Source of the DNA: Otis tarda
Taxonomy: Eukaryota; Chordata; Aves; Otidiformes; Otididae
Reading direction: 5' to 3'
Length of the DNA stretch: 64,000 nt
NCBI GenBank assembly: GCA_026413225.1
Contig: CM048591.1
Location: 35,929,803 to 35,993,802 of the forward strand
Part shown: piece after piece, positions 1-41,936 of the stretch
How the letters are laid out: every line of letters starts with the position of its first letter
How positions within the stretch are numbered: position 1 is the stretch's first letter
The notes under the pieces: generated by a model
What the model saw: the letters and a program-made list of their open reading frames with translations, nothing else
The model's database searches: none
What the model was told of the DNA's origin: nothing
Program-made: the position numbers and the translations under genes

Positions 1-900
1 CTCAAATGTGGGCTTAAGATGTATCCTGGGAGATCATCTAACCTCGCACTTTCAGACCTCCAAGTTTCACATGCCTAGCAGCAATTCACAATTTATTTGT
101 TCTTCTTGCTAGCTCCTTTGCAAGGCTTGAGGGAATTATCAAGACTTACTAGCAATTGCAGTGGAGAACGTTTCAGCCAGGAATGAAAGTTGCTGTCATC
201 AGGTAAACAAAATCTGATGAGATTTAGTCAGAAATAAAAATTAAGCATGCATAAACCTGCTGGACTGTGACCCCCATCTATTCACAACACTCATAGGAAT
301 TTGGTTGAGTAGGCCCGGGCAGAACGTTGCTTGAAACCCCAAAGGGAAAGAGCTAAGTGTGATTCGGTGCATTATGCAGGCAGAGGCAGAACACGGTTTT
401 TACAAGCATATTAGAATATCTTTAACTCCAGGTTTGGGATCTGAATGGGCTTGACTCTTCTGTTTGTTTCCCTTCAGCCTGGGTGGGATCACTGCCTTTA
501 AGAATTTAAGAGGAATCTTGCCACCAACACCAGTAGAAATACATGGAAGCACCCTGTATAAATAGCATCACAGTTGAGCTGGTCTGATCCTTATCCTGGC
601 TAATTGTATGCCTATGCCACTTTGACATGACCGGTATTTATTTATTAGTTATAGGAAAAAGCATTCTGCTGGCTTTTCAGCAGGTTTAAGAAAAAAACTT
701 TTGCTTTTAGGGAGTGTGGGGAAGAAAGACAAAACCATAGTTCTTTCTGTCTATCTTATATGCCAAAATGATGCAATGGAGCCAAAATGGCAATATATTG
801 AAAGAATGCTTTGCTGTAAAGCACTTTGCATCCATTCAACCTATCCAGAACTCACCCAGCCTGCTAAACTAAAGCTTCCTTTCTGATTTGGGCTTGAGGT
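1..900. other. No recognisable gene; possible continuation of the Polinton remnant
   Basis: No frame on either strand shows a recognisable domain. The minus strand lies downstream of the ATPase and possible virion-protein remnants described below. Polintons usually carry capsid and protease genes in such a position, but the minus-strand frames here are broken by many stops and no capsid or protease motif was found. This stretch may be flanking host DNA or element sequence decayed beyond recognition by eye. Confidence 0.4.
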
Positions 901-1102
901 TTGGTAGACTGTAGGTTTAACTGCAAATTGGATAAGGGTGGAAACACCTTATCCAGTGGTCTCTCTTCAGTAGGCACTGTCATGATGTGTAGATTTGGAC
1001 GGAGATGTGCCTGTGAAAGCCTTGCAGGGAACAGGAGTCTGAAGGACACACTTTTACTACTTGGGTTTTTAATGAATCTACAAACCTTTACCAGCATGTG
1101 CA

Positions 1103-1291
1103 TCACTTGGGGGTTAATGCAATGCTCTCCTTCAACGCATTCCGGGCAATTTCAGAAATGGCCTTTATCAGGTCACCAGAAGGAGTGCAAGAATATTGCT
1201 TTCCTCTGCCAGGGGGAGGACCAATCAACAGCTCCAAGAGGGACAGACACTGGGACATTGTGTTCCTAAGTCTGCACTGATAACAACACAA
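1103..1291 (-). pseudogene. Possible small Polinton virion-protein remnant
   Basis: A 62-codon minus-strand frame ends with DLIKAISEIARNALKESIAL and two further residues at about 1174-1106. That pattern (a hydrophobic I-x-x-I-A/C-N-x-L helix followed by L-T-P-K) resembles the start of a short basic protein found next to the ATPase in many Polintons and adintoviruses. The expected Lys/Arg-rich continuation is not seen in frame: a stop follows directly, and the next minus-strand frame (864-1106) is only moderately basic. The position, downstream of the ATPase on the same strand, fits. The match is short and from memory, so this could be chance. Confidence 0.35.
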
Positions 1292-1473
1292 GATGTCAGT
1301 CCAGGTCCTTTCTATTTACTGTTGAACACCAGTTTTTTCTGTTTTCAATGAGTGGAGAGTCAGCTGCTCTGGCTGGAAAAGACCAGTTCTTAGCCTAAAA
1401 GCCTCTGGGGTAAAAGCACTTAAATAGGCAACCAGATACCTATGCAGTACCTACATAACTTTTTCAAATGCTT

Positions 1474-1950
1474 CTAAAAAAAACCAGGGCCTTGCAAGAT
1501 ATATCTGGCTAGGGATGCAACCTGGAGGTTGTCTCTGGGATTCTCAAATAACACCATATATTTTGTGTTGAGAGTGACTGTGCAGCTCTTTCTACCCTGG
1601 CAAATATCCTTCTGGACGCTGAGATTCCTGTAACGCAGATACTTAGTAAAAGCTTTCTCAGTTTCGTTGCTCTCACAAGCAGGGTTCATCAAATCATTGA
1701 TCACAACTGCATTTACTTTATTAGGGGAAAATAAATGGTTATCATTATAACTTTCAGATGAGTCCTCCACAAGTTTGATAAAAAAATATTTACAGAGTAG
1801 TTCCTGCCAACAACAGTCAGATCACACAATATTCTCATGCATAACAGAGAGGTAGTGGTTGGTGTTCCCCAAAATACTTTTTGCAAAATAGACCTTCCCA
1901 CAGTTGTTAGGCTGTGCCAGAATAGCAAAAGAGGGGTGCTTCCAGCACAT
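1474..1950 (-). pseudogene. FtsK/A32-type genome-packaging ATPase, Polinton family (one internal stop)
   Basis: In intact elements this ATPase is thought to pump the genome into the capsid. One minus-strand reading frame runs from an ATG at 1950-1948 to a stop at 1474-1476, 158 codons, broken only by a TGA at 1824-1822. A degenerate Walker A lies at 1914-1894 (QPNNCGKVYF, with the GK lysine kept). Walker B is VVINDLM, with N-D at about 1698-1693 where the family usually has D-D. It is followed by FTKYLRYRNLSV and then VLFENPRDNLQVASLARYIL, both strongly characteristic of this family. Family members are usually somewhat longer (about 200-250 residues), so the C-terminus seems cut by the stop at 1476. 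It begins about 40 bp past the last recognisable polymerase codons on the same strand. The frame is far better preserved than the polymerase. Confidence 0.8.
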
Positions 1951-1989
1951 GCCCATGATCAAAAACTGTAGGGAAGGCTTTTAAAATTT

Positions 1990-2145
1990 TAATTGGTACT
2001 CTCTGTCATTGACAACCTTCTCATCTTCTGAAGGGTCCTACTTCTCCTAATTCCTGATGACAGAGCACTGCTCCATCACACTCTTCTTAAGGTCATCACT
2101 GGCTGGATTTATGATACAGATCAACACGAGATCCCTCAGTGCCTC
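1990..2145 (-). pseudogene. PolB C-terminal tail beyond the LTR-1 insertion
   Basis: This short segment resumes the polymerase after the LTR-1 insertion. The best frame contains DEKVVNDREYQLKF, which fits the family's C-terminal region with its conserved Lys/Tyr/Arg-rich stretch near the end. Stops lie on both sides. The bases 2141-2145 are the copy of the LTR target-site duplication on this side. The assignment rests mostly on position and a weak residue match. Confidence 0.5.
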
Positions 2146-2200
2146 TGTTCTGGTTTTGTTTGGTGAGAGGAGGCCTAAGGTGGTAGCTTCTGTAGGAAAC

Positions 2201-2282
2201 TGCTAGAAGTTGCTCCCCTTTGTTCAGTGGACTCGGCCAAGTTGCTAGAAGTTGCTCCCCTTTGTTCAGTGGACTCGGCCAA
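2201..2282 (+). repeat. 42-bp tandem duplication inside LTR-1
   Basis: The text starting TGCTAGAAGTTGCTCCCCTT at 2201 is repeated from 2243, a period of 42 bp, with the copies identical as far as GGACTCGGCCAA. Confidence 0.9.
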
Positions 2283-2659
2283 GGCCAAGCCAATTGGTAA
2301 CAGAATGTTCTGTGATAACGCCTCTGTGATAATATATTTAAGAAGGGGAAAACAGAAAAGAAAAAATAGACAAGATGTGAAGCAGCTGAGCAGAGGCAGA
2401 GAAGGGGAGGCGCAAGCCTCGTGGGCCTTGCAGGCCTCACCCTCTGGCCTCCTGCCAGGTGGCCAACTGGGCTCGACTCGGCCCAGCCCTGCTGCAAGAA
2501 GTGGAGAGGAGATGAGATGTGAATGAGATGTAAAAAAGATCCTGAGAGGTGTCTGCCAGCCTGTTGTGAATAATTTTTCTTGTGAGAGGAACAGCTGCAG
2601 ATGCCAAAGTCAGTGAAGAAGGAGGGGGAGGAGTAATGTGGTTCCTGGCCAAGGTTCTC

Positions 2660-2760
2660 CTGCAGCCTGTGGTGATGACCATGGTGGAGCAGGTTGTCCC
2701 CCTGCAGCCCATGGAGGTCCACGGAGGAGCAGAGATTCACCTGCAGCCTGGGGAGAACCC
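2660..2760 (+). repeat. Imperfect 39-42-bp repeats with CTGCAGCC in LTR-1
   Basis: CTGCAGCC recurs at 2660, 2702 and 2741. Two of the intervals contain related ATGG, GGAGCAG text. This is a degenerate short tandem array in the U3-like part of the LTR. Confidence 0.6.
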
Positions 2761-3312
2761 CACACCGGGGCAGGCGGAGGACTGAAGGAGGCTGTGGCCC
2801 ATGGAGGACCTGCTGGGGCAGCCGTTCTAAAGGGACTGCACCCCGTGGAAGAGATGACCCACGCCGGAGCAGTTTCATGAAGGACTGTGGCCCGTGGGAG
2901 GGGCTCCACGAAGGAGCAGGGGAGAAATGCAAGGAGTTCTTCCCCCTACGATGAAGCAGCAGCGTAAAACAACGTGTGATGAACTGACTGCAACCCCCAT
3001 TCCCTCTTCCCCACTGTGCTGCTTGGAGTGGGAGAAGGTAGTAGGGATAATGTTAAGCCTGGGAAGAGGGAGCGGTGGGGGGAGGTTATCTCATTCTCTG
3101 TCTCATTATCCTGCTATTTTTAGTAATAAATGAATAGTTTTCCCCAAGTCGAGTCTGTTTTGCCCATAACGGTAACTTTAAGGATTTCTCCCCGTCCTTA
3201 TCTCAAACCTCGAGCCGTTTTTCTTATATCATCTCCCCCTATTCTCTCGGAGGGTGGGGGGAGTGAGAGAGAGACTGCGTAGTCTTGTCCTGATAGGGGC
3301 TGAACTACAACA

Positions 3313-4567
3313 GCCTCAAAATTGATATTTTCTCTGTTTGTTGCTTTTAGAGTGACACCTTTAACCTTTAAACAACACTTGCCTCCAGACTGCAAGTAGC
3401 CATAGGATTTGGGGCCTGATGACAGAAACTCCATAATGTGCTTGTGTGGTGGCAAATTGTCTGTCAACTCACCTAAATAGTCCCTGAGCAGCAGCATCCA
3501 GACCCCTAGATGACACAAACGTCACAGAATCTGTGTCATGATAAAGGCAACATGCAGGGCATGGAAGAGATCAGAAAGCTTGAGGCCTGGGTATGCCGTG
3601 GTGAAGCACACTATGAAAATGTTAGCGTTACACTCCAGGATCATGTATCCTTTGGCATGCTTCCATGAGACAGCGGGTGCATCCTTATCAGGAGCACACA
3701 TCATAAGCCAGAGAAAATAGGTAACCCTGCAACACATCTGATTCTCTTACAATGGCAGTGTTGCATAGGTTGGATCTCTGTCTCAATCTTCCCCATAAGG
3801 AATTTGAGAATGGTTTTCCAATTTGGCATTTGGCAGGGTTTTTCTTAATATGCTTAGGCCACAAAATGACGTCTTCTTTTTGCCTGTAATCTTCAACATA
3901 ATAGCTTTTTTGTCATCATCTGTGTACTAGGCTGGGTAGCCTGAAGCTTCCCGCTTCTGGTGGAGGTGGGGTTTTCTATAATGTGGGAAAAGACTCCTAC
4001 CCCCTATTCAGAATGTCAAAACTCATAGATTTCACAGACCCTGTAACCCTTCTCCAGAGCCTTGTTCAGTTCCAGGGAATATCAGGTACCCACAAGGGCT
4101 GCTTTTTCATTGCTACAGATGCAAAGGGCTTGGCAGCTTTCTGCACAAGCACGGCACAAGGGAAATAGTAGCTTGCCATTTACCCTTATGGGAAGCACAG
4201 GGAGAAAGAGCCCATGAGGTGGGTACACCTTTAATTTGAACATCCGAAAGGCTATCAGGGTGTCAAAACTCTCAAAAATAACTCCAGGGTGTCCAAGAAG
4301 GTAGTGTTTTGTTTTGTTGATGAAGGGATAGAGGCTAGCAAGATCATACTAATGTATTCTTCTGTCAGTGACTGGCTTGTCATACTCACAGATGACATTT
4401 GTCCTGCCACCAAAAAGCACATTTCTGGGGACCAGCAATGTGAGCAGTTTGTGTGCAAGTTCCATGTCTGATTTTGTTGTAGTGACCCATTCATGCACCT
4501 GTTTGGATCTGATTTTAAAACCTACTCTCTTCAGGTGGTCCATCTTTTGTTGTGTTTTGTAATACAC
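3313..4567 (-). pseudogene. PolB polymerase-domain segment (GGRT, motifs A, B, C, C-terminal block)
   Basis: This segment holds the catalytic palm. PRNVLFGGRTNV (about 4432-4397) is the linker motif between the exonuclease and polymerase domains. Motif A, DLASLYP, sits at 4345-4325 in a frame shifted relative to the GGRT frame. Motif B is near 3840-3781 (NSLWGRLR in place of the usual NSFWGKFG-like text). Motif C, YHDTDS, has both catalytic aspartates at 3537-3529, but a frameshift just upstream separates it from the CFTTAYPGLKL frame (ORF 3522-3737). ORF 3198-3518 continues with DYLGELTDN, FLSSGPKSYGYLQSG and KVKGVTLKATNRENINFEA, ending exactly at the LTR-1 junction (3312/3313). At least three frameshifts and several stops are present. 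Confidence 0.85.
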
Positions 4568-5000
4568 ATATCCAAAGCAGGCCCCTGCCAGAGCGTTGCA
4601 GTCATTTTCATTGTAGCATTTGAAACACTCATGGAGAAAGCAGTCATTTAATTAAAAAGCTATTGGCACCCTATCAATGACTACATGGACATCTAAGATA
4701 CAGGATCCTACTTGATATTCACCACCTTGTAACACATGACAGATTTGACTATTTTAGGTTTTGGCCACATGTATAAGCCATTGAATAGAAAGGGTTAAAT
4801 ATCTCTTTTTTCTCTGACGGTAGCTCTCTGCAGGGAGGAGTGTAACCGTGCTAGGTTTAAGGAACATAAACTCATACCTGGACATGCAAGTAGAAACCAA
4901 TGTAATGTACTACAAGGGATCTCTACAGCAACAAACCTTCATCATTTCACTATTCTTTTTCTCAGAATGTGTGATTGGTCATCACTATAATCTCATTCTT

Positions 5001-6117
5001 CTATGATCGGTAGGCATCCCTCAACATTTTTACATCTTGTTGGCAATAGTCACTCTGTTCATTTTGCAAGTCAAAAATATCCCAATTAGTTTTGTGCCAT
5101 GCCAAGAACTGTCTTTTTTCTTCAAGCATCATGCTGTCCAGCCCATAATATTCCAGTGGTGGAAGAAGGACCACACAACTTTGATTTTCAGCAGTGTTGA
5201 AAAAAAAATGGGAGAAATACATAACTGTTGGCACATCTTCATACTCAAAGCTTAGGGAAGGCTGCCTGGTTTCAGGGACAAAAAAATTTAAGGAGTCTGA
5301 AATGTATAGTCAGGCTAGGTACTTCTATGTATGTGAGTTTACCCCCCTGAGTGATTAATTTAACATGCATTTTTTTCATTTAGAAGCTCACTAACAATAG
5401 TAGCCATCATAGCCTTTGGCATTATGTGCTAGGAAAGTGTAGCTGCAAAGCTTTGTGTCCATAAATAAAGTGAACGAAGTCCACAAGACATGTGTCACCT
5501 TTAAACTTCCATTCTCCTTTATTTTTCCTTTCTGCCCCTTCTTCTTCATCCCAAGGGGTGTCTGGAGATAATTCATGGAAAAAAAAATGTAGTTTGGGAT
5601 ATGTGTTGCTGTCTCCTGCATACATTCCATGTCACAGATAATACAGCCTTGACCTTCTCCTGGATTTTTGATCATGGGCATGAAACATTGGTGCTGGTTT
5701 ACATTACAGACCTGTGTATAGCACATTTGGCACTTTTACATTTTTGCTGTTTTTCTAGACAGACATTGCATTTTTCACAAAAGAATCGTAGCCAAACAAT
5801 AAATTACTTTTTTCAGCAGCCAGAGCTTTGAGGGTCTCTGTAAGCATTTCCCAGAACTGCAGAACAGGCTGCAGCTAGGGTATCTTACACTTCCCCCCAC
5901 AGCACCCCCCCCGAAAAAATGCATGGTCATGAGACAAGCAGAGCTGGAAACAATAACAACTATGGCCATGGTTATACAATGTATGACAAAACTCACAAAA
6001 ATTTCTCACCCTAGATATCTTCCTGACCTTCTTAACACTATAATAATGTTCATCATATAAAAAGAAGGAAACAAATCTCAGGTTGTCATTCAGCTCCAAA
6101 ATCTGCCAACCTTTCAA
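5001..6117 (-). pseudogene. PolB zinc-binding and exonuclease segment
   Basis: ORF 5875-6117 carries CEFCHTLYNHGHSC (C at 5997), a Cys/His cluster seen in Polinton PolB ahead of the exonuclease. ORF 5391-5726 carries another Cys/His run (CNVNQHQC), exonuclease motif I DMECMQETATHIPNYIFF (D at 5633, E at 5627) and exonuclease motif II FLAHNAKGYDGYYC (D at 5408). ORF 5001-5234 carries motif III DYCQQDVKMLRDAY (Y at 5048, D at 5036). All four catalytic acidic residues of the proofreading site are therefore still encoded, although in separated ORFs. Confidence 0.85.
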
Positions 6118-6142
6118 CCCCTCAGACAGGATGATGATACAC

Positions 6143-6752
6143 TGTCCTGATTTTGGCTAGGACAGAGTTAATTTCCTTCCTAGTAGCTGGTATAGTGCTG
6201 TGTTTTGGATTCAGTATGAGAACAATGTTGATAATACACTGATGTTTTAGTTGTTGCTAAGTAGTGCTTATACTAAGTTAAGGACTTTTTCAACTTCTCA
6301 TGCTTTGCCAGTGGGAAGGTCGGAGGTGCAGAAGAAGCTGAGAGGGGCACAGCCAAGACAGCTGACCCAAACTGGCTGAACATATGTTCCATACCATATG
6401 ACATCATGCTCTGTCTTTAAACTGGGAGAGTTGGCCAGGGGGTGGTGATCACTGCTCTGGGACTGCAGGTCATTGCTCGGCAGATAGTAAGTGGCTGCAT
6501 CACTTGTTTCTCTTTGGTTTTGTTTCTGTCTCTTTTTGTGTTGGTTTTTTTTTTTTCCTTTTCATTACAATTATTTATTACTATAATTATCATTTTATTT
6601 TATTTTATTTCAATTACTAAACTGTTCTTATCTCCACCCATGAGTTTTCTTACTTTTACCCATCTGATTCTCTCCCCTGTCCCTCCACGGGAGGGTAGGG
6701 TGAGCGAGCAGCTGTGTGGTACTTAGTTGCCAACTGGGGTTAAACCACAACA
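6143..6752 (+). mobile_element. Solo LTR (LTR-2), ERVL-like, inserted in PolB
   Basis: The 610-bp element starts TGTCCTGATTTTGGCTAGGA and ends GGGGTTAAACCACAACA. From memory the whole text closely follows a very abundant neoavian LTR, including TAGCTGGTATAGTGCTGTG, the GACATCATGCTC stretch, the pyrimidine/AT-rich middle and the GTGAGCGAGCAGCTGTGTGG tail. No gag or pol sequence is attached. The flanking pentamers (TACAC on the left, TATGT on the right) are not identical, so the target duplication is decayed or the boundary is off by a base or two. It separates the N-terminal PolB segment from the Cys/His and exonuclease segment. Confidence 0.85.
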
Positions 6753-7260
6753 TATGTATATTAGTGTGTAGCAGATTGTCATGCAAAGGTATATCACTCG
6801 ACATGACCTTTCCATGCACAAACCACCACAGTTTGTCATGTAGATCTTTGCTCTGCTTAACAGTTCTACATCTGTCAGGTCCTTCTTGGCTGTGAGTGCT
6901 GCGACACTTGCAGCAAAACAGATATTATTGCCACTGTTACACAGAACAATTAAATAGTTCTGCTTTTTGACTGTAATTTTGGATTAGGCAATAGGCTGCA
7001 GGGTTCTGAAAACCCTGCCACCTATGGCTTTCATGTACTTTGCAGGAGAGTACTGACCCAATCTAAAAATTCTGTTGCACTTACATTGTTTAAATGAATA
7101 GTGGGAGGAAATAGAGAGTCATGCATGCTGACAGCTTCAAGATAGAGCTAAGCATAATCATCAACAGCTGGCATAAATGATCAAAAATTTGCTCTACACG
7201 CTGAACAAATATTTCATAAGCTCCAACTTGGGATACTGGATCTAAAGTAACAAATCTGTA
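6753..7260 (-). pseudogene. PolB N-terminal segment upstream of LTR-2
   Basis: Minus-strand codons from 7258 read RFVTLDPVSQVGAYEIFVQR. After a frameshift near 7165 a region follows with MHDSLFPPTIHLNNVSATEF and LDWVSTLLQST. Further down (about 6960-6890) lies LCNSGNNICFAASVAALTA. The N-S/D-x-N-x-C-F-A motif and the preceding L-Q-S end are landmarks of the N-terminal region of Polinton polymerases. There is an in-frame stop in the middle and at least one frameshift. The start codon was not identified. Confidence 0.7.
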
Positions 7261-7272
7261 TTATTCTACATA

Positions 7273-8700
7273 TTGCCCAGCTCTGAACCTCTGCACTGGC
7301 CAGTCCCACTGCCTAACATGCTCCATGGCAACTACAGGGCCAACTGCTGCCTCCTCCACCTCTGCTACTATAACTGGTATGTCCCTTCCAGGGGGTCATC
7401 TTCTACCCTAGTTGGGAGGCTTGCTCACTGGTCACACATTCAGAAAAACAGTTTGCACCTAAGGGCTCTGGTAGTCCCCCCTTGCTAATAAAACACTTGC
7501 AGTGGTGTAAAATCCCTTTGGCTTTCCTCATTAGCAGACTTTGTTCTAACTTTTTTTTTTTTTTCTGTTTGGCTGGCCTGTAAGCCAAGAGCCCAGATCT
7601 AACCAACCCACCAACCCTTTTATCCCCAGGAAACTGCTAGCTACTCCTCTGTGCTTGAAAATAAATAATCATGGTTTGTGAGTGCTAAAACCTTTCTTAC
7701 TCTTTACTGTTGCACTTCCCAAAAACTGGCTTAGCTGTACTAATTAATGGCCTTGTTTGTAACACTATGTTTTGCTTTGATGTCCTGTGAACAATAGTCA
7801 CAGCCTTATCAGCACCTCTAGCACTTGTATGACCACTCTTACAACTTCTTCAGCCTCTGTCACAGCACCACTGGCTGCTGATGTTCTCTGAGAGCAAAGA
7901 GCTGCAGTCTCTGTCCCAAATCCTGGGTCTTGCTGCTTTTGCAGTTATCAGGATGTTCTAGCAGAACAGTCTTGATAGCATGCTCAGTCCTCCACCTCTT
8001 ATTTGCAGCACCAACCTAAGGATACAGAGACATATATAGCACTAGCCTGGGCCCCATAGTGGTGTTATAAGTAGAAGATCCCCCACGACCACAGGGAAAG
8101 GGAGCTTCCCACCACTACCCATCCTCTCTGTGTGACACTGACCTTGAAATCCAGTTTGTGGTTCATGGGCCCATTGGCTAGTTCTTCTGGTTCACCTCAT
8201 CTTTTTTGGTATTCCCTGAGGTTCTTTTCTTTATTACCCCCACATGCATATTCTTCTGAAGTTGGCATTTTGCTCTGGTTTTCCACTTTTGCAGACAGGA
8301 TTGCCTGTGTCTTGCAGCACTGAGCAAAGCCTTGAGCCTGCCCCAGTTGCCCTGTGTGGCCATCCTGCTGGGCTGAGTGCGAGAGCCTCTTGGTCCGACT
8401 CACAGCATCAGTCTCTTCTTTGCACACAACAGGGTCTGCACCATGGGCCCCTTGGTGGGCCTCCTAGGAAGGGTCTACAGCCCTTGGGCATATTTCCCCA
8501 CCCTTTTGGCACCCCTCAGCCCTCTTGAGGTCACCCTCCCTCAATGTTTTGGGCTTGTTGTGCAGCCTGGTGAAGTAAGGGACCCCAGCCCAGCCCCAAG
8601 TTCTGTTTAATTGCTTTCTATTCACATTTAAACTTTAATTAGTCATCCAATTAGTTCTTATTAAATAATACTTTATCCATTTTATACCTATGCTTTCATT
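7273..8700. other. No recognisable gene; possible further Polinton sequence
   Basis: This lies immediately upstream of the PolB start on the minus strand. A minus-strand frame at 7403-7606 is Cys-containing (HHCKC, NCFSEC), and minus-strand text at 8178-8427 and near 7990-7800 stays open for 60-76 codons. None shows an integrase, protease or capsid motif I can name. It could be decayed element sequence or ordinary host DNA. Confidence 0.3.
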
Positions 8701-8702
8701 TG

Positions 8703-8862
8703 TTTTATATATTTAATTTCTACATTTTTATAAACTTATATATATAATACTATCTTTATATACAAGTGTATATGTGTAAACACATATTTTTACATATATA
8801 TCTTTATACAGATATATCTCTATATATGTATATTTTGCATATATATGTATATATTTTTGTAT
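8703..8862. repeat. TA-rich simple repeat
   Basis: The stretch is dominated by ATATAT/TATGTA alternation with interspersed TTTATA and CATATA. It is low-complexity AT-rich sequence that produces a meaningless Tyr/Ile-rich ORF on the minus strand. Confidence 0.85.
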
Positions 8863-11800
8863 CTCACCTCTTCCTGGCCCAAAGGACACAGCCAGCCAAT
8901 CATAGGGCTCCCTGAGAACATGTGGGTATGACAGTGTCAAGAAATGTCCATCAGCCAATCCTAATACGGTATGGAAACACATGGGTTACTGTGTTTAACT
9001 AAAGGTGCCATAAAATGTATGAAAACATGCAATTTTCCTGTAACTATTCCGTTACTGTCAGGTCCCTTTACGCTACGTGGTGTCCATATCCCAGCTCCCT
9101 GAATTAGGTGTTGATTTTGTGGAACTTGCCAGATGCACAGATGTCCTCATCTTTTCTTTTGTTTTTTAATTTCTCTTTTATTTTTTTTTAAGTTTAACAA
9201 AGCAGAAAAAAAAGGAAAGGAGTTGACCCTTGACTTACAAGCAAGTAATATCTCTCTTAAATATTCTACAGCCTTAGAAAAAAAATGGGTTGTAGAGGTT
9301 GAAACTGCCTCCAGGCATCTTCAAGTTTTAGGATTGGCACTTACATAACTGATCATACTAGGTCTTACTGAATTTGGCAGCCATATAGGGGTTATGTTTC
9401 TCACATGGATGAACTGTTCTTGAACAATTTCTCCAATGTATTAAGCACAAACAGGCTTTTCTCAACATCAAGCATGCAGGTCTCCTCTCTCTATTTCTCA
9501 CCCTTTCCTCCCCACTCCCGTCCTCCCAACAACAAATGAAGCTATTGTGGCCACGGTGGCAGTTGAGTGGATTCTGTCTAACAAAAAAAAAAAAACAAAA
9601 ACCCCAAAAATTCTGATACCATAGTGCTATTAGGAATGGGGAAATGGAGAGAAGTAAAATCACTTTGGGCTGGGTTGCAACCTACACAATTGTGCCAGAG
9701 AGGGAGCGTACAAGGATATTGCCCCTGTGCTCACACACTCTGCAAATCAGCAATAACCGCAGTCCCTGAGGATTAGCAATGCTCCAGTACAAACAGCTGA
9801 AATCCCTGACAGGGCGGAGGGAATACTGGGGGCCCCTGCCTGCTGTGCACCGCACCCGCCAGCAGAAAGCATGGAAATGGCTCTGCCCTTCCCAGGAGCT
9901 GGGGGGGACGCAGTTCTGCCCTCCTTGTGCAGCAGTATGGTTTGAGCCTTCAGAAAACTTTTCTTTTCCTCACATCCCAGGATCCAACAGGCACAGGAGA
10001 AGGCGGGGGTAAAATACCCACAATGTGTGGTGAGAGGCTATGTATACTTGACCCATCTTTTGCCCACCTTTTGGGTTGTTTTCTAAGTAGTCCTCGCTAT
10101 GTGAGCAGCTCAGGGATATACAAGGGCTTTCTGAAATTATGAGAGAACTGAAACCATAATTATTGTTACAATTTCAGAGAGGAATCTTTTGCTTAAGAAT
10201 ATGCTGTACAGCTATTGTAGGAGGCGTAGGGAAAGTGGTACATTAATTTTCCAAAACAATGCCATCCAAATAAATATTCCAAAATACACTTCTTTTTTTT
10301 TTTTTTTCCCCCCATTTTAGATACTACCAGGAACACAGATTGGGAGAGCAATGATATGTAAGTTAGTCACTCTTTCTGAATTAGTCTGTGAGGTCATAAA
10401 AGCTAACAAAACCCATCTATTATATAAGCGTTAACACAAACACTGAAAACCTGATAGCCCCACCTGGAATTTCCTCTCAGATTTTTTTATTCTATTGTTT
10501 CACTACTCAGGCGTGCATGAATGAAACTTTGAACTTAGGGATGCTTCATTTTGGTTATAGTCAATCTAATTTTTCTCATTTATTAAGTTTTTATATTCCT
10601 GCTAGATTTCTTATGGCTGCTTTTGTTAACCTCATAGTTTAATATAACATCTATTTAAATGTGATGATTTTACTTCCTGCATTTGTGCTAACAGCAGTAT
10701 TTACTTTGGAGGCACATGTTGCCCATGTTTTCTGATTCTGGAAGATTAAGACACCAAACTACTTTTTAACACATGGAGAATCTCTTTTGCTAAATATTGC
10801 AACCATTTTACACAACTGGTTTCTCAGCTTCCAACTAAAACGTTGGAGAATGGGGACTGCAACTGTTTATTAATTATAGATGAACTAGGGACTATCTGTG
10901 AAGGGGAACATAAATATTGCAGCAAGTCCTACACTGTGCCATCTGCTGCTCTAAAATCAGTCTCCAAAGAGACCTTAAAGTGCCACGGGACCGGGTGCAT
11001 TCAAACCCCAGCCTGGCTTACCTGATTCAAAGATAGCCCTGCCACAAAGATAGCCCTCTAGTAAACTATCTTCCAGGCAATCAATATTGTGCTTTAACTC
11101 TATGTGCCAAAGTAATGGGAGAGATTAAAAAAGCAACAGCAGTGAAACAGTTGTGAATTAATTAGCTGATTGTCAGAGATGCTGGGCTAGCCAAGCTACT
11201 TACAACAAGAGCTGCAGGTGTTTCTGTACATTTGAAAATCGGACTATAAATGGGGAAGAAGTGAAGCACAGCAGCTTTAAAGAACATCTGAATGCAAAAT
11301 GAATGCAGGGAGACGCTTCCTAAAAAAGCCCCGTGCAGTTGTGCTTAAATAAAACTGTTCCTTGTTGAATAGTGGATATTCCCCATAGGACATTCTAGCA
11401 GGATGATGTAAAGTAGTTCGGGTGTGGGAGGCCATACCATGAAGCACAGGAAATAGTTGAAATCTTTTGATATGTTTATAATGCTAAGTAAATGGGAAAT
11501 GGCTACAGCTGAGGTTGTCAACCACTTCATAGTCACTTTTTCTGGCAGATGGTCACTTTTCACTGTCAACATTTATCTGAAATTGCATATACAAGCAAGG
11601 TATGTGGGCATGTTCTGCAGCTCGTGCTCAGGATATGCTCTTAAAGCAAGTTGCTTTTAATTTAAAAGTTTTCCTTTGTTATTCCTCATCTCCTTTGTGA
11701 GGCTCCTGAGTACTCCACACACACTTCAAATGTTTAAATATGGTGGCTTTTTCTTTTCACTGGTGGAGTTTGAATGCTCTTTACTGTACTACACATGCTT

Positions 11801-11976
11801 TTAAAACAGCCTGCAACATCAGCTATGACAGTCTTGGAGAGAACTTCTGTTCCCTTTTTCTGCTATTGTAAAGCTGATTTCCAAACCACTGAAAACACAG
11901 CAGAAGACTTTTTTCTTTGCATCCCTTTCTCCTTTCCCTCTCTTCCTTCCTTTCTTCCTTCCTTCCTTTGTTCCTT
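8863..11976. other. Intergenic, nothing recognised
   Basis: AT-rich sequence with homopolymer runs (for example a T run near 10292-10307). Short ORFs on both strands show no family resemblance. A moderately GC-richer patch at about 9775-10010 was checked and not recognised. A 13-bp direct repeat CAAAGATAGCCCT occurs at 11028-11040 and 11045-11057. Confidence 0.6.
11936..11976 (+). repeat. TTCC/TTTC tract at the 3' end of a CR1 fragment
   Basis: Imperfect CTTCCTTCC units run up to the CR1 3' boundary at about 11977. A much longer TTCC tract sits at the other end of the same CR1 fragment (from about 12506). Confidence 0.8.
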
Positions 11977-12505
11977 AGAATCATAGAATTATGGGCAGCC
12001 TGTTCCAATGCTGATAATCCTTTCGGTGAAGACATTTTTCCTAATATCGAATCTAAACCTCCCCTGGCACAACTTGAGGCTGTTTCCTCTTGTCCTATCA
12101 CTTGTCACTTGGGAAAGGAGGCTGACACCCACTTCATACAACCTCCTTTCAGGTAGCTGTAGAGAGCTATAAGGTCTCCCCTCAGTCTCCTCCAGACTAA
12201 ACAACCCCAGTTATCTCAGCCGCTCCTCATAAGACTTGTTCTCTATATCCTTCACCAGCTTCGTCACCCTTCTTTGGAGGTGCTCCAGTACCTCAATGTC
12301 TTTCTTGTAGTGAGGGGCCCAAAACTGAACACAGTATTTGAGGTGCAGCCTCACCAGTGCTGAGTACAGGGGGACAATCACTTCCCTACTACTGCTGGCC
12401 ACACTGTTCCTGATACAGGCCAGGGTACTGTTGGCCTTTTTGGTCACCTGGGCACACTGCTGGCTCATGTTCAGCCGGCTGTCGACCAACACCCTCAGGT
12501 CCTTT
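11977..12505 (-). mobile_element. CR1 LINE 3' fragment (reverse transcriptase C-terminus)
   Basis: CR1 non-LTR retrotransposon, minus strand, 5'-truncated. The minus-strand frame 12211-12492 contains [40 protein letters not shown] and [12 protein letters not shown], all typical of the end of CR1 ORF2. After a frame change, 11989-12204 continues with SDRTRGNSLKLCQGRFRFDI. The 3' end reads ATAATTCTATGATTCT, the usual CR1 3' terminal motif. The 3' untranslated part is shortened. It cannot mobilise itself. Confidence 0.92.
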
Positions 12506-12740
12506 TCCTTCCTTCCTTCCTTCCTTCCTTCCTTCCTTCCTTCCTTCCTTCCTTCCTTCCTTCCTTCCTTCCTTCCTTCCTTCCTTCCTTCCTTCCTTCC
12601 TTCCTTCCTTCCTTCCTTCCTTCCTCCCTCCCTCCCTCCCTCCCTTCCTTCCTCCCTCCCTTCCTCCCTCCCTCCCTCCCTCCCTCCCTCCCTCCCTCCC
12701 TCCCTCCCTCCCTCCCTCCCTCCCTCCCTCCCTCCTTCTT
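12504..12740. repeat. Compound microsatellite (TTCC)n then (TCCC)n
   Basis: About 120 bp of nearly perfect TTCC units change at about 12624 into TCCC units that run to about 12735. A short TTCC reversion lies near 12645-12663. The tract begins exactly where the CR1 fragment stops. Long Pro/Ser- or Gly/Arg-rich open frames across it are artefacts of the repeat. Confidence 0.98.
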
Positions 12741-15700
12741 TCTTTCCCTCTGTCTCTTCCTTTTTTCATTTATTTTTCTTGTTAAAAGCCAGCACTCCCC
12801 TGTAGGATGCCCCAGTGCAGGTACGTTTGTGCCTACCTCTGCTGTATGCCTGACAGTCTGGTTGCAAAGAGGCTCTTTGGAGCTTTTGGTAGGGAGAGTA
12901 GTAATTCAAAGTTGTTTAGAAAGGCTCAGGATGAAGGGACCCAGCAATAAAAATTAAAAGCATTGAGACCCTGATCCAGGAAAATGTCTTCATTCAGTAC
13001 ACTATATTTTTTCAATTTCATTGTTAACAAATACTGTTTTCACATATGTGACTCACAATTCCTGTTCATTTTTCTATACTGCATGGGTGGTATGCTCCAC
13101 AGTTCTGTCCCCTGAGTGTCTGCCCATCTCTGCCTGCAGCTGAAGCCTTCGTTCTAAGGGAAATGAGAGCAAGCCGGGGAATTACCTTAGCAGCAGCTAG
13201 GAAGTGGCCACAGTATGTATGTGGATCTAGGAGCCTTATGCCTTGGTTTAGATGTGTTTATTGAGTGCTCTTCAGTCGCTAGCCAGAACCCAAAACTACA
13301 CCTGTCCTAAGATAATTAATACATAATGGGCATTAAGGCAACTGCATATGAAAAATGTAAATACTGGGAACCTATTTGATAAAAAATAGTTTGAGATATC
13401 TTATGCAACACACAACTTAAGCTTAAAGCTGATGTTTAACGCACAGTTCTTAGGCTGAGTGACATGTACCTTCTTTTATATCCATCAAGTATTTTGACAT
13501 CCCAAATTGTCAATATCTGTAAAGGTCTCTGCTACCTGCAGTTTATCATCTTCCCTGTCCCTACCCAAATTTAACTTACAAGCAACCCACTCCTCATTAC
13601 TTCCAATAAATATTGGAAGTTGTTGTGGTTGAGAGATCAAAATATGAATGTTTTGTGAACAAGAGAAAGAAGCAGTCTATTCCATGCGATTTTATTCTTG
13701 AAACTTGAGCGACTTCCGACTTTGCTTAATCCTACAGCAAGTGCAACACAAAAAGCAGTACTGAAAGGTTCACCACAAGCATACCTGAGCCCTGAACTGG
13801 AAGGGTTGTTCTCTATGTTCCTTCTGCTGCAACTACTGTAAATGAACTAAGTGCTTTGTCCTAGTTTTGCTGTAGCTTTTGTCCCAGCAAAATTGAAAAC
13901 CTATTTAGCTTGGAACAAATTATTGGAATTGGTAAGAAAGTTTTCAGCACAATCAGAGCCTTGGCGCTACTCTGTTCTGCCTGAAATTTTTATGTATAAT
14001 ACAACACCTGGTCGTAAGATAGGCTGCAGGGAAAGGGTACTACTTTGGGACTTTAAAATCCAGGAAAAAAAAAAAAAATAGGTGGTTATGCAAATGTTCT
14101 CATAGGAAACTGTAAAATTAGATATATATCTTCAAATCTATGGTGAGTCTTTTTCAAGGCATTAAGGAGACGCTACTTGCTGCCCACAGAAGGTACATTC
14201 TTTAGCCCAAAAACTAGACAAGAAAAAGTTCACTGTTTAGTAGAAAAAGCAAACAACAAAACCTGCTTTTCTCCATTCAAGTAGTTTAATATATGTGAAT
14301 TTATAATCCCATCTAATGTAGGGTAAATGCCATATAGATAATAGAAAATCCCATACAGAGCCTCTTATAACAAGAACATCTTTCTTGTCATAGAGCTCAT
14401 ACAATGGCTGTAAACTTGCCCAAAACACATAGGAGCCTTCAGTATGAGTGTAGCAGACAGTCACCTATTTAGGCAATGAAGTTAATTCTTAATTTTGAAC
14501 TCTGTGGCTTGCTTACTACCAATGACATTATCAGGAGGAGATATAATCCATATCTGAATAACCATTATGTATCACAGGCCTTCATTTTTACTAGATTCTG
14601 GCTTTTTATATTGTACAAATGTACTGAAATCTTAGTTGCGCTTTAGATTAAGGTAGTTCCAGTCCCACTTGACTTCACACTAATAATTCTTCTGTAGAAG
14701 AATTATTTATCTGAGAAAAGGTACTTATACTGTGCAAGAATGCATATCACGGCTGAATCGTAACGTGGCTTAAAAGTGATTTTTTTTTTTTTTATAATTA
14801 GATCTGACCTGCTGAAAGCAAAACAAACCAAAAATTTTAACTGGTTTACTGTATTCTAATACTTTAGAATAAAGTATTCTTTCCAAACTTTAAAAACTCT
14901 TGTAGTGTTACTACAATGAAAGCTTTGCAACAGGCAGGATCTGATCTTACAGGTAGCAGTGCTCCATTTTATACTGGCTAGTGTTTGTTTCACCTAACCC
15001 TGTTATTTGTGACAGTTTCCAACTTCCCAGCAAGTTACCATATCTCTGTGTGCCTCTCTTTCCCGATCTGTGAAACAGAGGTCTTTACACTTTGGTTTGC
15101 AAAGTATGTTGAAAATTACTTATAGAAGAATAGTGCCTACACCAAATATTTTGGTTTTGGTCCATATGAATGCATTTTTCACACTTCTTTTTTTTCAGCA
15201 TCTGATTATTGCCAAGTCACTATTAACAAATTATTATCTTATTACTTGATCTTTTTCTGCTTATTTTTGAAGGAAGGTCATTAATTTATTGGATCAAGTT
15301 ATTTTCCTCATTGTAATATGAATGGCAGATGCCACATCAACAGCACTGGAAGATACCATATCCAGAGAGGAAAGGGTAGAAGCAGTGCCTACAACCATAC
15401 AGTTCTTAAACCAACCGTGATCTACACGCACCTGCATCCTCAAAACAGCATGTCTTGGCCTCTCTTCCTACTCAGTTTCTTCTAAGACTATCAAAGAGAG
15501 ATGGTTCATATTAAATGTGCTTGTAATAGTAGGTACTATTCTCTTAAAACTGTCCCAAACTATTTAAAAAAACTGACCTACTGTGCATCTGTGAGTTGCT
15601 AATGTATTCCATGCTGGATAGATTCAAACATGGTCTTCTGATGTCTTTTATATATATATAAAAAAAAACAGTTTAGCTTCCTGGTATTTTTTTCAGTGGT

Positions 15701-21700: not shown

Positions 21701-24700
21701 AAACGATGAAAAGAGCAACAACCCTTCCGAAATGGCTGCTGCTCTATCTATCCAAAGTCAACATGTCCGGAAGGAACTTGATCATTCCATAAAAACATGC
21801 AGATAAGCCCCAAATGCTGGGGATTATACTGATTTGATTTTTATACTAGAGTATGATCATTCTCAGCAATAGAGAATGATTTGGACTTTTTCTGAGTGAG
21901 GTAGGTGGAAATGGACTGTGTACATTTTTTTAACTCAAGGATATTCCTACCTGTACCTTCAAAGAAACACAACTTGTATAATGGGGTAGAAGACTACTGG
22001 AAAAGATTTGTACCTTGTAGTTGATATTATGAGCCAGTGATACAGTGGCCAAAAAGTTTTATGCAACCATTGGGTGTGTGAAAAATGAAAACTAACTAGT
22101 GGTTAATAGCTGATATTACTGGTGTATTTAGCACAGATGCAAGTATTGCTGATCGTTTTCTTACATCTGTAACTCATATAGGATACTAAACTATAGAAGG
22201 CTCTGAGGAGAGCCAAAGGAATGATTAAGGAGAGGGAATCAAATCTACTGAAGTTTGTCAGAGGATAAAAGTGGTAAGGCCATAGTTTGCATTGGTTCAA
22301 GAAGTTTTATGGCCTGTCTTACAAGGTAAGTCAGCATAGAGGATAAAAATGGTGCCTTTTACCTTTCAGTCTGTGAAAATAAAGTCTTAGAGTGGATCTT
22401 TAAATACAGAACTGCTTCAGGTTGCTAGCTTTCCGGTTGGCACAGTAAAAGTGGCATGTGGCTCCAACCTGCCATTTATCATGTGACGTGAAATAAGCAC
22501 TGTTTCACACTGAGAACTGCAGTGATAGCGTTTCCAGTCAACTTACTGACTACAACATGTTTGGTGCTCTGTAGCAAACACTGAATGATGATGTTAGTTC
22601 AGAAACATCTTTGACCTGGAGAGTTAAGTGCAGGAGATAGGGACCAGGTTTGGATTCAAGTAGAACAACAGATACTGTACTAAAATTTCAGTAATATAGC
22701 ACTTCGGAAAGATAATCAGATGGCAATTTAACAGTATCTGAACAGCGTAAATGAAACAATTGTATGAAATCACTTACGGATTTGTTGGGGTTTTTTTAAC
22801 CAGGCCTTTGGAATTCAAAGGGCTTGGATGTTTACTCCTTGTATTTTCATTGCCTACTGTTATAAATCTATCTGTTACATTGTAAGTCACAAAAAAATTT
22901 GGATTTTGCTCCAAAATAGTGTGAAAGGATCAGGTTAATAGAAGTTAGCGGCATGTTTGGTATTGCAGAAGAGGTCTGCAGATGACAATCTAATTTAGAG
23001 GGAGAAAGTATGTATTAATTTTTATTGCAATTAATCTCACTAAGAGTGAGATCACAATCTCACACAAGAGAGCATCAGAAGCAAAAGTTCATATCACTGA
23101 AAAGTTCCTTAGGAGGCAAATAAGACTGCTTATTTTTATTAGCAGATAAGACTAATAAGAAATACTTAATGAACTCCAAAAGTTGTATTGCTAAAAGATT
23201 ATAACAGAATGTAGGAATTGCCATTATTTGTTTTGGAATAAATACCAAACCTCAGGAAAGAGTTTTCCAGATATGCTGTAAGTACACAAAAGTAACAAAA
23301 AATATGCCCTGGTTCTATGCTAACATGATGCTTTAATGAAGGAAAAAAAAGCACCAAGGTATGCAAACAAGTACTTCAGCCATAGAGAGTGCTATTCTGC
23401 TGCAGCAGAAAATGGTTTCTGGGGCTGGAATGTGTAACTGCCTGACAGCCCCTGTATCAGCAGAGGGTTTCCTATGACACTCCATCCTCCCGTAGTGCAT
23501 ACGTGCACCATGCTAAAATACTGACGTCTGCATCACAAATGGTCATTTACAGGTCAACAAGAAGGTGAATCTCTTTTTCCACAGCTGCTTACATAACATA
23601 TTTAAATGCTGTTGTCTGTATTCTGCTCCTATCCCCTTTTCTGAGTGATGAAATTGCTTGAAAAGAGTTGAGGAACAGGAAAGAGGTGGTAGAGTTTTGC
23701 TACGACCTGTCTCTTCCTCCAGCACATGCGAGGAGACCAAGAATTGCAGGTGCAGGATGAAGAACTGGATTCATCCTAACAGAAAATGGATTTTAAATAG
23801 ATCTGGGAGAGGCTTCCTTCCCTGAGATGTTGCAGCACTTTTCCTGGGTTGGATCTACCTTGCCCTATGTAAAAGGATACTAGCAAGTAACTTTGAGACC
23901 TACAGGATTCTATCCACCAGTTTGGGTTTATATGCTGCTTAACATCACAGCCTGCATTCACAAGACACGGGAGTTGCATTTTTTTTTGCTATTGTCATTT
24001 GTTTTCCCTAAATGATGATGGAGAACTGCTAGAGGAAACTGTCCTGGAACTGCCCTGAATTGATGCACTTCTTACTGTAGACATGACCACATATTTTGGC
24101 AGCACTGTTGACTTCCACTTCTGAGGCTTCCTTATTTGGATAAAGGAAGTATCTTTAAAAAAAAAAAAAACCACAGATCCTTGAAAAATCATAGTGCTAC
24201 TAAATGTAGTCTGAAACTAAATTCAGTACAATATATGTGTCGGTTTCCCGATTATATTGCAAGTATAGAGACTTCTAAACTACAAATGAGGTGGTAAGGG
24301 AATCAGAAATAACTTCTGCATCAGTCTGCCTCTTCCACAAATGTTATGTATCTTTGTATTTTAAGTACCTCCTGTGTATCCTTGGGGAAGAGCAGATGGT
24401 AAGTGATTTGGGAAGGTCTTTAAACACTCTATGACAATTTCAACAGCTTTTTATTGTTATTAATCCTAGATCTTGTATAGCTAGTTAAGCCTCACCCAGA
24501 AAGCCTCACCCAACAGAGTTTATATGTGTTATTATACTTTGGAATGTTAAGTGTTTTAGATGCAGTCTCTGCTGGGAGCTCTTATATAAAGAACAGGTTT
24601 TCTGCCATGAAACAAGCAAGTATTCAAAACACGCTCCCCCCACCCCCTCACCCCAATCCTGAAGTTGTGCTGTATTGTTGCACTTCTTAACAGCTTGTGA

Positions 24701-27700: not shown

Positions 27701-28136
27701 TCTGAATAGGCTCACGGTGAGAGCTTTAGAAACGTGTGTAATAACAGTACATATTCTTGTGGTTTTTCAAGAGACTTATAGGAGCTGCCATGAACCTTTC
27801 GCAAGCAGCCAACACAAATTTGGCCAGGTTGATGTTCTAGTTTGAGCTCTGCCTTTGGCTGTTGCTTGCCTTTCGACTGTTGTATCAGCAGATGCTGGGG
27901 TTGCAGGTAGCAGCCAACACCCTCATGTGAAAGCTTGAAGGCGACCGAGAGAGCTGTAGGAAGGGGCTTCACGCTCCCGGCCAACTGCCTGCAGCCTTTA
28001 CCTCTAGGCAGATGTGAGCAGCAAGTGTCACAGCACACCAACATTTGTCGGAGAAATGCTCCTAGGCCTAGAAGGCAGGCATATCAGAGAAAGTAGACCC
28101 CCATGGTGGGAGGAGGCCCGTCCCTGAATCGCCTGC
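12741..28136. other. Long gene-poor stretch, nothing coding recognised
   Basis: AT-rich sequence with only short ORFs (under about 115 codons), none with recognisable domains. Small repeats seen include an AAAAC run (about 17480-17500), A and T homopolymers, and a direct repeat AAGCCTCACCCA at 24487-24498 and 24501-24512. A minus-strand 110-codon open frame at 27712-28044 lies about 170 bp before the CpG island but has no recognised similarity. Confidence 0.6.
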
Positions 28137-28218
28137 ATGAGTGGCTATGCTTGCCCGCCTTGCGCTTGCCACTGCGTTCCACCCCTGCCAATATGTGACT
28201 TGTGCCAGCTTCAGCCAT

Positions 28219-28400
28219 CCCTGCCTGCGCGCCCCGTCCCTGCGCGCCCCGTCCCTGCCTGCCTCACCCTGTCAGTCCCAACCCTGCCTGCGCGCCCCAT
28301 CCCTCCCCAAACGCTGCACCCCCGCCTGCGCGCCGTCTCCCTCTGCGACCCCCACCGCTGCCTGAGCGCCCCATCCCTGCCCGTGCGCCTACCTCTGCTT
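28219..28400 (+). repeat. Imperfect C-rich minisatellite (CTGCGCGCCCC units)
   Basis: Units resembling CCTGCCTGCGCGCCCCGTCC recur near 28222, 28240, 28285 and 28323, with decayed copies (CTGAGCGCCCCATCCC) near 28360. It lies at the upstream edge of the CpG island. Confidence 0.7.
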
Positions 28401-28448
28401 GCCCGCGCACCCTCCGCCCTGCCCGCTCCCCCGGGGGAGCCTCGGGGG

Positions 28449-28495
28449 AGGCGGCGGCGGCGGCGGGCGGGGGCGGACCGGCGGCGGCGGCGGCT
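28449..28495 (+). repeat. (GGC)n trinucleotide runs in promoter/5' UTR
   Basis: GGC triplets run at about 28450-28466 and again at about 28479-28494, separated by GGGCGGGGGCGGACC. This is about 200 bp upstream of the likely start codon. Confidence 0.9.
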
Positions 28496-28695
28496 GCTCC
28501 CCGCCTCCCTCCCCGCCGCCCGGCAGCGGGGGGCCGCGCCCCCGCGCACCTCCCTGCCCTGCGGGGCCCGGAGGCGCCGCGTAACCCCGCGCCGCTCGCA
28601 GAGGCGCGCAGCGGCGTGCGGCGAGACAGGCGCGGAGCGGGCGGAGCGGCTTCCCCCGGTGCGCGGCAGCGGAGAGCCGCGGGAGGAGGAGGAGG

Positions 28696-28776
28696 ATGGC
28701 CGCGGCGGCAGGGCAGCACTGGGGCACCGCCGCACCCCTGCTCGCCCTCGCCCTCGGGCTCCTCGCCGCCGCGCAG
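28696..28776 (+). CDS. Likely first coding exon of an unidentified secreted or membrane protein (signal peptide)
   Basis: An ATG in good context (GAGGAGGATGG, A at -3 and G at +4) opens 27 codons with an N-terminal Ala-rich region followed by the hydrophobic core LLALALGLLAAA and ending in Q. The exon then meets CAG|GTAAGG, a near-perfect splice donor, with the intron starting at 28777 in phase 0. This is the classic design of a signal-peptide exon of a secreted or type I membrane protein. An in-frame read-through would continue only into GC-rich intron sequence without domain character. The rest of the gene must lie beyond a first intron of more than 35 kb, because no further exon was recognised here. 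The short exon is too little to name the gene, and other short or distant exons could have been missed. Confidence 0.6.
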
Positions 28777-40811: not shown

Positions 40812-41936
40812 ATGAAGGGGTTACAGCATTGGTGAATAAGGGAAGAGTGACGTGGACTTAATGCAAAGCATTTGATACTGTCCCAGACAACACCCTTGTG
40901 TTTTAGATGGAGAGACATGGATTTGACAGGTGGACCGCTTGGTGGATAAGGAATTGGCTGGATGATTGCACTCAGAGAGTTGCTGTCAACAGCTCAGTGT
41001 CCAAGTGGAGACCAGTGACAAGTGGTGTCCCTCAGGGGTCTGTACTGGGACCAGTATTATTTAATGTCTTTGTTGGGGACATAGACAGTGGGATTGAGTG
41101 CACTCCTAGGAAGTCTGCTGACAACACCAAGCTGTGTGGTGCAGTCAACAAGCTGGAGGGAAGGGGTACCATCCAAAGGGACCTTGAAAGGCTTCAAAGG
41201 TGGGCCCATGTGAACCTCATGAAGTTCTATAAGGCCAAGGGCAAGGTCCTGCTCTTGGGTTGGGGCAATCTCAAATATGGATACAGGTTGGAGGATGAGT
41301 GGATGGACAGCAGCCCTATGGAAAAGGAATTGGGGGAACTGGTGGATGCAAAATGGAATGAGAGCCAGCAATGTGCACTTGCAGCCGAGAAAGTTGATCG
41401 TATCCTGGCCTACACCAAAAGAAGCATGACCAGCAGGTCAAGGGAGGTGATTCTGCCCGTTTAATCTGCTCTGATGAGACCTTACCTGTAGGGTATTGTA
41501 TTCAACTCTGGAGCCCCCAGCATGAGAAAAACATGGACTTGTTGGAACAAGTTCAGAGCAGGGCCACAAAGATAGCCAGAGGGCTGGAGCATCTCCTGTA
41601 TGAGGACAGCCTGAGAGAGCTGGGGTTGTTTAGCCTACAGAAGAGAAGGCTCTTCTTGCAGTCTTCCAGTACTTAAAGGAGGCCTACAGAAAAGATGAGG
41701 AGGAACTGTTTATAAGGGAGTGTAGTGATACGATGAGGGGTTAACAGTTTTAAACTGAGAGAGGGTAGATTTAGGTTAGGTATTATGAAGAAATTATTTA
41801 CTGTGGGTGATGAGACACTGCAATAGGTTGCCTAGAGAAGTTGTGGGTGTCCAATCCTTGGAAATGTTCAAGGCCAGGTTGGACGGGGCTTTGAGTGACC
41901 TGATCTAGTGGAAGGTGTCCCTGCCCACGACCAGAG
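40812..41936 (+). mobile_element. CR1 LINE fragment (reverse transcriptase domain to 3' region)
   Basis: The plus-strand frame 40907-41464 encodes part of the CR1 reverse transcriptase. It includes MERHGFDRWTAWWIRNWLDD, SGVPQGSVLGPVLFNVFVGD, SADNTKLCGAV and SREVILPV. The F/Y-A-D-D catalytic box reads SADN (about 41120-41131), so the active site is lost. CR1 coding text is visible upstream from about 40812 (CKAFDTVPDNTLV, with an in-frame stop nearby). Downstream, after the TAA at 41462, decayed ORF2 C-terminal text continues to about 41936. It is cut before the normal 3' terminal ATTCTATGATTCTA motif. It is 5'-truncated and dead. Confidence 0.93.

Follow-up and report, generated by a model that had tools for sequence, protein, structure and literature searches.

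Does the genome of the bird Otis tarda preserve, in the stretch of DNA considered here, the remains of a Maverick (Polinton) element, and how much of one? The window, by which we mean the whole stretch analysed, comprises 64,000 nucleotides of contig CM048591.1 (GenBank assembly GCA_026413225.1, positions 35,929,803 to 35,993,802 of the forward strand). A reading of its letters, the original prediction, had placed in 900..7400 a fossil element carrying, in order on the minus strand, a protein-primed family-B DNA polymerase and a packaging ATPase of the Polinton/adintovirus lineage. Both genes were recovered by tblastn in that order and on that strand, as colinear remnants in which decayed pieces of the polymerase are followed by a nearly complete packaging ATPase, and we put the probability that a portion of a dead Maverick/Polinton lies here at roughly 95%. 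The span that could be supported is shorter than the one proposed; it covers 1319-6072, with the polymerase firm at 5297-3315 and probable from 6072, and the outer parts fell away, 6753-7260 yielding no match to a polymerase N-terminus and 864-1315 nothing assignable.

Two proteins served as references, P0036 of Mytilus edulis (1040 amino acids) and P0003, the FtsK protein of the Terrapene box turtle adintovirus (223 amino acids), and each was compared by tblastn with bases 1-7400 and with the whole window, every piece being matched in its own frame. Within bases 1-7400, residues 387-479, 508-787 and 799-1036 of P0036 aligned at 5297-5019, 4906-4085 and 3992-3309 (50.8, 155 and 58.9 bits), with a summed E-value of 2.6e-61 that became 2.2e-60 over the whole window; the final residues of the last piece extend into a block resembling a long terminal repeat (LTR), and a separate search stops at 3315. 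Residues 5-168 of P0003 aligned at 1944-1477 with 59% identity (189 bits, E 1.7e-59) and residues 160-222 at 1507-1319 (55.1 bits, E 1.7e-12), the corresponding whole-window E-values being 4.5e-58 and 1.7e-11. Neither protein, when reversed, gave a tblastn match at E<=1, and the top scores in 20 dinucleotide shuffles of the window were 29.6 bits for P0036 and 26.6 bits for P0003, such that nothing comparable to the main polymerase and ATPase pieces appeared in the controls.

The affiliation of the polymerase was examined through the piece 4082-4348, for which two of the 42 candidates matched at E<=1, both of them full-length Mytilus edulis proteins carrying PF03175 (DNA_pol_B_2); P0035 and P0036 show 50% identity over 100% of the piece, with E-values of 3.2e-17 and 6.1e-17, and P0036 itself scores in Pfam as a DNA_pol_B_2 protein at E 9.8e-39. 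Two window pieces have weak direct matches to PF03175, in the order expected of the gene: 4082-4348 (E 0.015, profile positions 235-310) and 3688-3912 (E 0.13, positions 366-403). Assignment to another family of B polymerases, which had been named beforehand as the outcome that would speak against a Polinton, was not seen. Judged by these sequence matches, a family-B polymerase of the Maverick type is present, and it would have been protein-primed, as is usual for its family.

Towards the N-terminus the matches become weaker. The piece 6072-5926 scores 28.1 bits, under the best shuffle, and its E-value falls from 0.077 over the whole window to 0.008 in 1-7400 and 8e-5 in 5300-6147; none of 500 residue shuffles reached its score, and we accept it as probable because its place and order fit. 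The short pieces at 5400-5794, found by region-limited tblastn, gave no match at E<=0.01 when the search covered 1-7400. A polymerase N-terminus at 6753-7260 was unsupported, its score being attained by at least 260 of 1000 shuffles, and a search for the C-terminus at 1945-2190 gave no match, such that in these two intervals no polymerase was found beyond either LTR-like block. Isolated matches elsewhere were judged to be due to chance, since they break the gene order and their scores lie near or below that of the best shuffle: those of P0035 and P0036 at 60444-60304 (30.0 bits against 29.6 for the best shuffle; E 0.013 and 0.020), of P0036 at 9692-9928 on the plus strand (28.1 bits, E 0.077) and at 31317-31177 (E 0.87), and of P0003 at 24561-24593 (E 0.96).

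For the ATPase, the open 115-residue piece 1474-1821 matched the fragments P0001 (84% identity) and P0002 (75%) among four candidates, and the three sequences together formed profile A1, which retrieved 34 of 393 candidates at E<=1. The best named protein among them was P0003, at E 1.2e-59, and PF04665 (Pox_A32) was carried by six of the 34. P0003 itself has no Pox_A32 match at E<=1 in Pfam, and the A32 link of the ATPase therefore runs through relatives of the turtle protein. Profile search, tree and tblastn agree on a packaging ATPase of the FtsK/A32 type and of the adintovirus lineage; a failure to group with these ATPases, the second outcome set beforehand as adverse, did not occur. The turtle virus is classified as Betadintovirus terrapene (Polintoviricetes, Eupolintoviridae) and, on sequence comparison covering the ATPase alone, a Betadintovirus protein is the closest named relative of the window ATPase. 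The turtle ATPase is intact, with 223 residues, whereas that of the window is broken, with two stretches of four residues missing.

The tree of these proteins contained 25 rows, namely 24 of the 34 profile A1 proteins and one window piece; it omits P0017, P0022, P0023, P0025, P0027, P0029 and P0031-P0034, and P0002, P0015, P0019 and P0020 entered it trimmed to their aligned parts. The window groups with P0001, P0002, P0019 and P0020 (support 94/89, just under the starred level), next with P0015 (92/78) and then within a wider set of 16 rows that includes the turtle FtsK (87/96).

Both genes are fossil, as had been predicted. The ATPase carries two in-frame stops and one frame change in addition to the two four-residue deletions, as seen in the alignments and by tblastn. 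The polymerase has seven stops in the aligned frames, some of which may lie in stretches aligned out of frame, and the frame group of its pieces changes three times if the weak N-terminal piece is included.

The arrangement of the two genes indicates how much of the element is to be expected here. In intact vertebrate Mavericks polB, atp, pm and pz make up one module, and a second comprises the integrase, minor capsid, PW, major capsid and protease genes; in most of these elements the two occupy different strands and face the centre (PMC8097293; this and the other papers cited are drawn upon through excerpts of their text). Measured against that architecture, the succession of polB and atp on one strand is that of a vertebrate-type Maverick/Polinton, and by analogy the pair is the first module, running leftwards. 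The architecture and this orientation together imply that the element lies only partly inside the window, which, we infer, cuts it, with the second module expected to the left of base 1. No protein of that module was matched among 30 pieces scanned with Pfam, of which 27 lie in bases 1-12000, a stretch with 116 frames of at least 50 amino acids. Following atp, at the place of pm and pz, the frames 864-1151 and 1103-1315 have no Pfam match, and the latter has a weak match to a PHROG of unknown function (E 0.16). The features are collected in Table 1.

Table 1. Features of the Maverick-like region and its borders, in window coordinates.
Feature	Position	Strand	Basis
Candidate pm/pz remnant, by position	864..1315	-	Place after atp as in the excerpted PMC8097293; no homology support
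Decayed packaging ATPase, FtsK/A32 type (Maverick atp)	1319..1944	-	Residues 5-222 of the 223 of turtle adintovirus FtsK; tblastn, profile search, alignments
Presumed P-loop (Walker A) part of ATPase, then in-frame stop	1822..1944	-	Aligned to P0003 residues 5-44
LTR-like block, TG...CA ends, 1122 bp	2191..3312		Between polymerase and ATPase matches; flanks GCTTC / GCCTC, 4 of 5 equal
Decayed family-B DNA polymerase, changing frames	3315..5297	-	Residues 387 to about 1034 of P0036; tblastn
Short polymerase pieces, right order	5400..5794	-	Residues 206-351 of P0036; region-limited tblastn, summed E 2.4e-4
Probable polymerase N-terminal cysteine-rich piece	5926..6072	-	Residues 117-169 of P0036
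LTR-like block, TG...CA ends, 610 bp	6143..6752	presumably +	Just past polymerase match

The two LTR-like blocks are presumably solo LTRs of avian endogenous retroviruses. From the ATPase match, which begins at 1944, to the first block, which begins at 2191, the distance is about 250 bp, and the polymerase match ends on the far side of the same block. The flanks of the block 6143-6752 carry no matching target-site duplication. Inside the other block, a 42-bp tandem duplication at 2201-2283 (2.0 copies) is free of mismatches, which suggests that it is recent.

The history that would best account for the region begins with a DNA virus of the Maverick kind that inserted itself into the germ-line DNA of a host ancestor, presumably by means of its own integrase and of copying by the protein-primed polymerase, as expected from the family. 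Its coding capacity would subsequently have been lost through the stops, frame changes and small deletions, a decay that is directly observed, and the LTR-like blocks in or beside the element, if they are indeed LTRs, would have arrived later. The remnant most likely makes no protein and would evolve as neutral DNA.

Several observations weigh against the assignment to a Maverick. The Pfam matches of the window pieces do not reach the curated cut-offs, and those to unrelated families are just as good (RAP, 0.0082; Haem_bd, 0.017; DUF7796, 0.044). The polymerase relatives found are two mussel proteins only, and the length range searched may exclude longer vertebrate ones. Just two of the 22 inner branches of the ATPase tree are starred, neither involving the window. 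Finally, the window shows neither an integrase, capsid or protease nor terminal inverted repeats or a 6-bp target-site duplication, and it ends too early for most of these. With regard to the repeats, one end of the element should fall beyond the window, and 2,166 degraded elements without discernible ones are reported in the excerpted PMC8097293.

The rival that survives best, itself very improbable, is that the polymerase derives from another protein-primed replicon, such as a mitochondrial or cytoplasmic linear plasmid, an adenovirus or an adomavirus, and lies beside the ATPase by chance. PF03175 is described as organellar and viral and is thus shared by several groups, among which we count those just named, and the turtle FtsK has a weak match to Adeno_IVa2 (E 0.015). 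Such a juxtaposition would nevertheless have to reproduce a common strand, the Maverick module order and the short distance between the ATPase and the block bordering the polymerase, next to an ATPase with 59% identity to an adintovirus protein. Moreover, linear plasmids with a family-B polymerase are defined by a polymerase without a packaging ATPase, and here the ATPase is adjacent and on the same strand. Slightly less credible still is a fragment of the ATPase or polymerase adopted by the host and held under selection, a reading with which the frame-preserving nature of both small ATPase deletions and the open state of the 115-residue piece would agree; it is opposed by the stops and frame changes in both genes and by the related fragments, which lose the ATPase frame at differing points. 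Chance similarity in noncoding DNA, to which the weak Pfam scores of single pieces and the rank of 6072-5926 below the best shuffle might point, is refuted for the main pieces by the shuffle controls, their 155 and 189 bits standing against at most 29.6 and 26.6 and the reversed proteins being unmatched.

The Maverick assignment was followed into wider databases with little return. Scans of IMG/VR with ATPase and polymerase pieces, two degenerate ATPase DNA patterns, alignment A2 (described below) and P0036 confirmed no relative, two matches, L001 and L002, being left unstudied; the pattern-matching stretches, seven in one scan and 57 in another, failed a tblastn check. The turtle FtsK had no match among phage records at E<=0.01 and P0036 none among solved structures at E<=1. 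PHROGs gave weak, unrelated matches only, for four of ten window pieces, and neither Rfam at gathering scores nor a tRNA scan found anything over the whole window.

The remainder of the window holds a CpG island at 28001-29100 and in it, on the plus strand, what is probably a first exon, near 28696-28776, encoding a signal-peptide-like sequence and ending at a CAG/GTAAGG donor; the gene has no Pfam match. A reverse transcriptase fragment at 40907-41461 (Pfam RVT_1 at E 8.2e-7, which narrowly misses the curated cut-off) looks to us like CR1, and what we take to be a second CR1 remnant lies beside a long TTCC/TCCC microsatellite at 12505-12747 with 61 copies of the four-base unit. The CR1-like fragment and the look of the LTR-like blocks would by themselves suggest a bird as the most probable host.

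The original prediction held such elements to be far less documented in birds than in fish, amphibians and non-avian reptiles. This is right in part, avian Mavericks having been in print since 2016 (PMC4992247) and 2021 (PMC8097293), and the excerpts of these two papers extend to degraded copies in chicken, turkey and many other birds. In 2016 Guizard et al. (PMC4992247) described, on chromosomes 2 and Z of the chicken, Polinton remnants that hold polymerase B frames and are conserved in turkey, and these frames are broken as in the window; the bird Mavericks of Barreat and Katzourakis (PMC8097293) are likewise defective copies. Fossils in placental mammals, on human chromosomes 7 and 8, are similarly ancient, degraded and devoid of terminal inverted repeats, and they differ in being mammalian and in that their orthology was demonstrated by synteny (Barreat and Katzourakis 2022; PMC9683012, in excerpt). 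Polinton insertions have been inferred to predate the split of amniotes and amphibians (PMC9004415), and the rate analysis in the excerpted PMC11089739 excluded this group. We found no publication title on this particular locus, supplementary lists being outside the scope of the search, and it may already be catalogued. The locus is a genuine Maverick fossil of the sort already known from birds.

Whether the fossil is shared with other birds was approached through the two small deletions. Neither site shows a gap in any of the 13 sequences of alignment A2, all of them full or near-full ATPases taken from the 34 profile A1 proteins. Nine fragments, from a sample drawn with a query that contained the window, were aligned as well. 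The first site is covered by four of them, with the deletion in three (P0002, P0019 and P0022) and not in P0015; at the second, four are aligned in frame, with the deletion in one (P0001) and not in P0021, P0023 or P0028. P0020 resembles the window at the second site by eye, its alignment ending just before it, and no single fragment among the nine was shown to have both deletions. P0015, P0019 and P0022 leave the ATPase frame at differing points. It seems that other decayed or diverged Maverick copies exist in public assemblies. The shared deletions hint, at the level of sequence, at descent from one broken copy, either as the same locus in several species or through duplications, and an ancient integration common to several bird lineages, as originally suggested, is plausible. 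The stronger version, that the locus and the deletion-sharing fragments come from a single integration, one already broken Maverick copy having been inherited through much of the bird tree or duplicated after its death, is a tentative one to which we would give rather less than even odds.

The sequence itself breaks no new ground. Its value lies in a locus with recognisable polB and atp and with deletions that recur elsewhere, which could be dated by synteny across birds, so placing a lower bound on the age of one integration and of its inactivation. If the single-integration history is true, the locus would offer a means of dating the extinction of Mavericks in birds.

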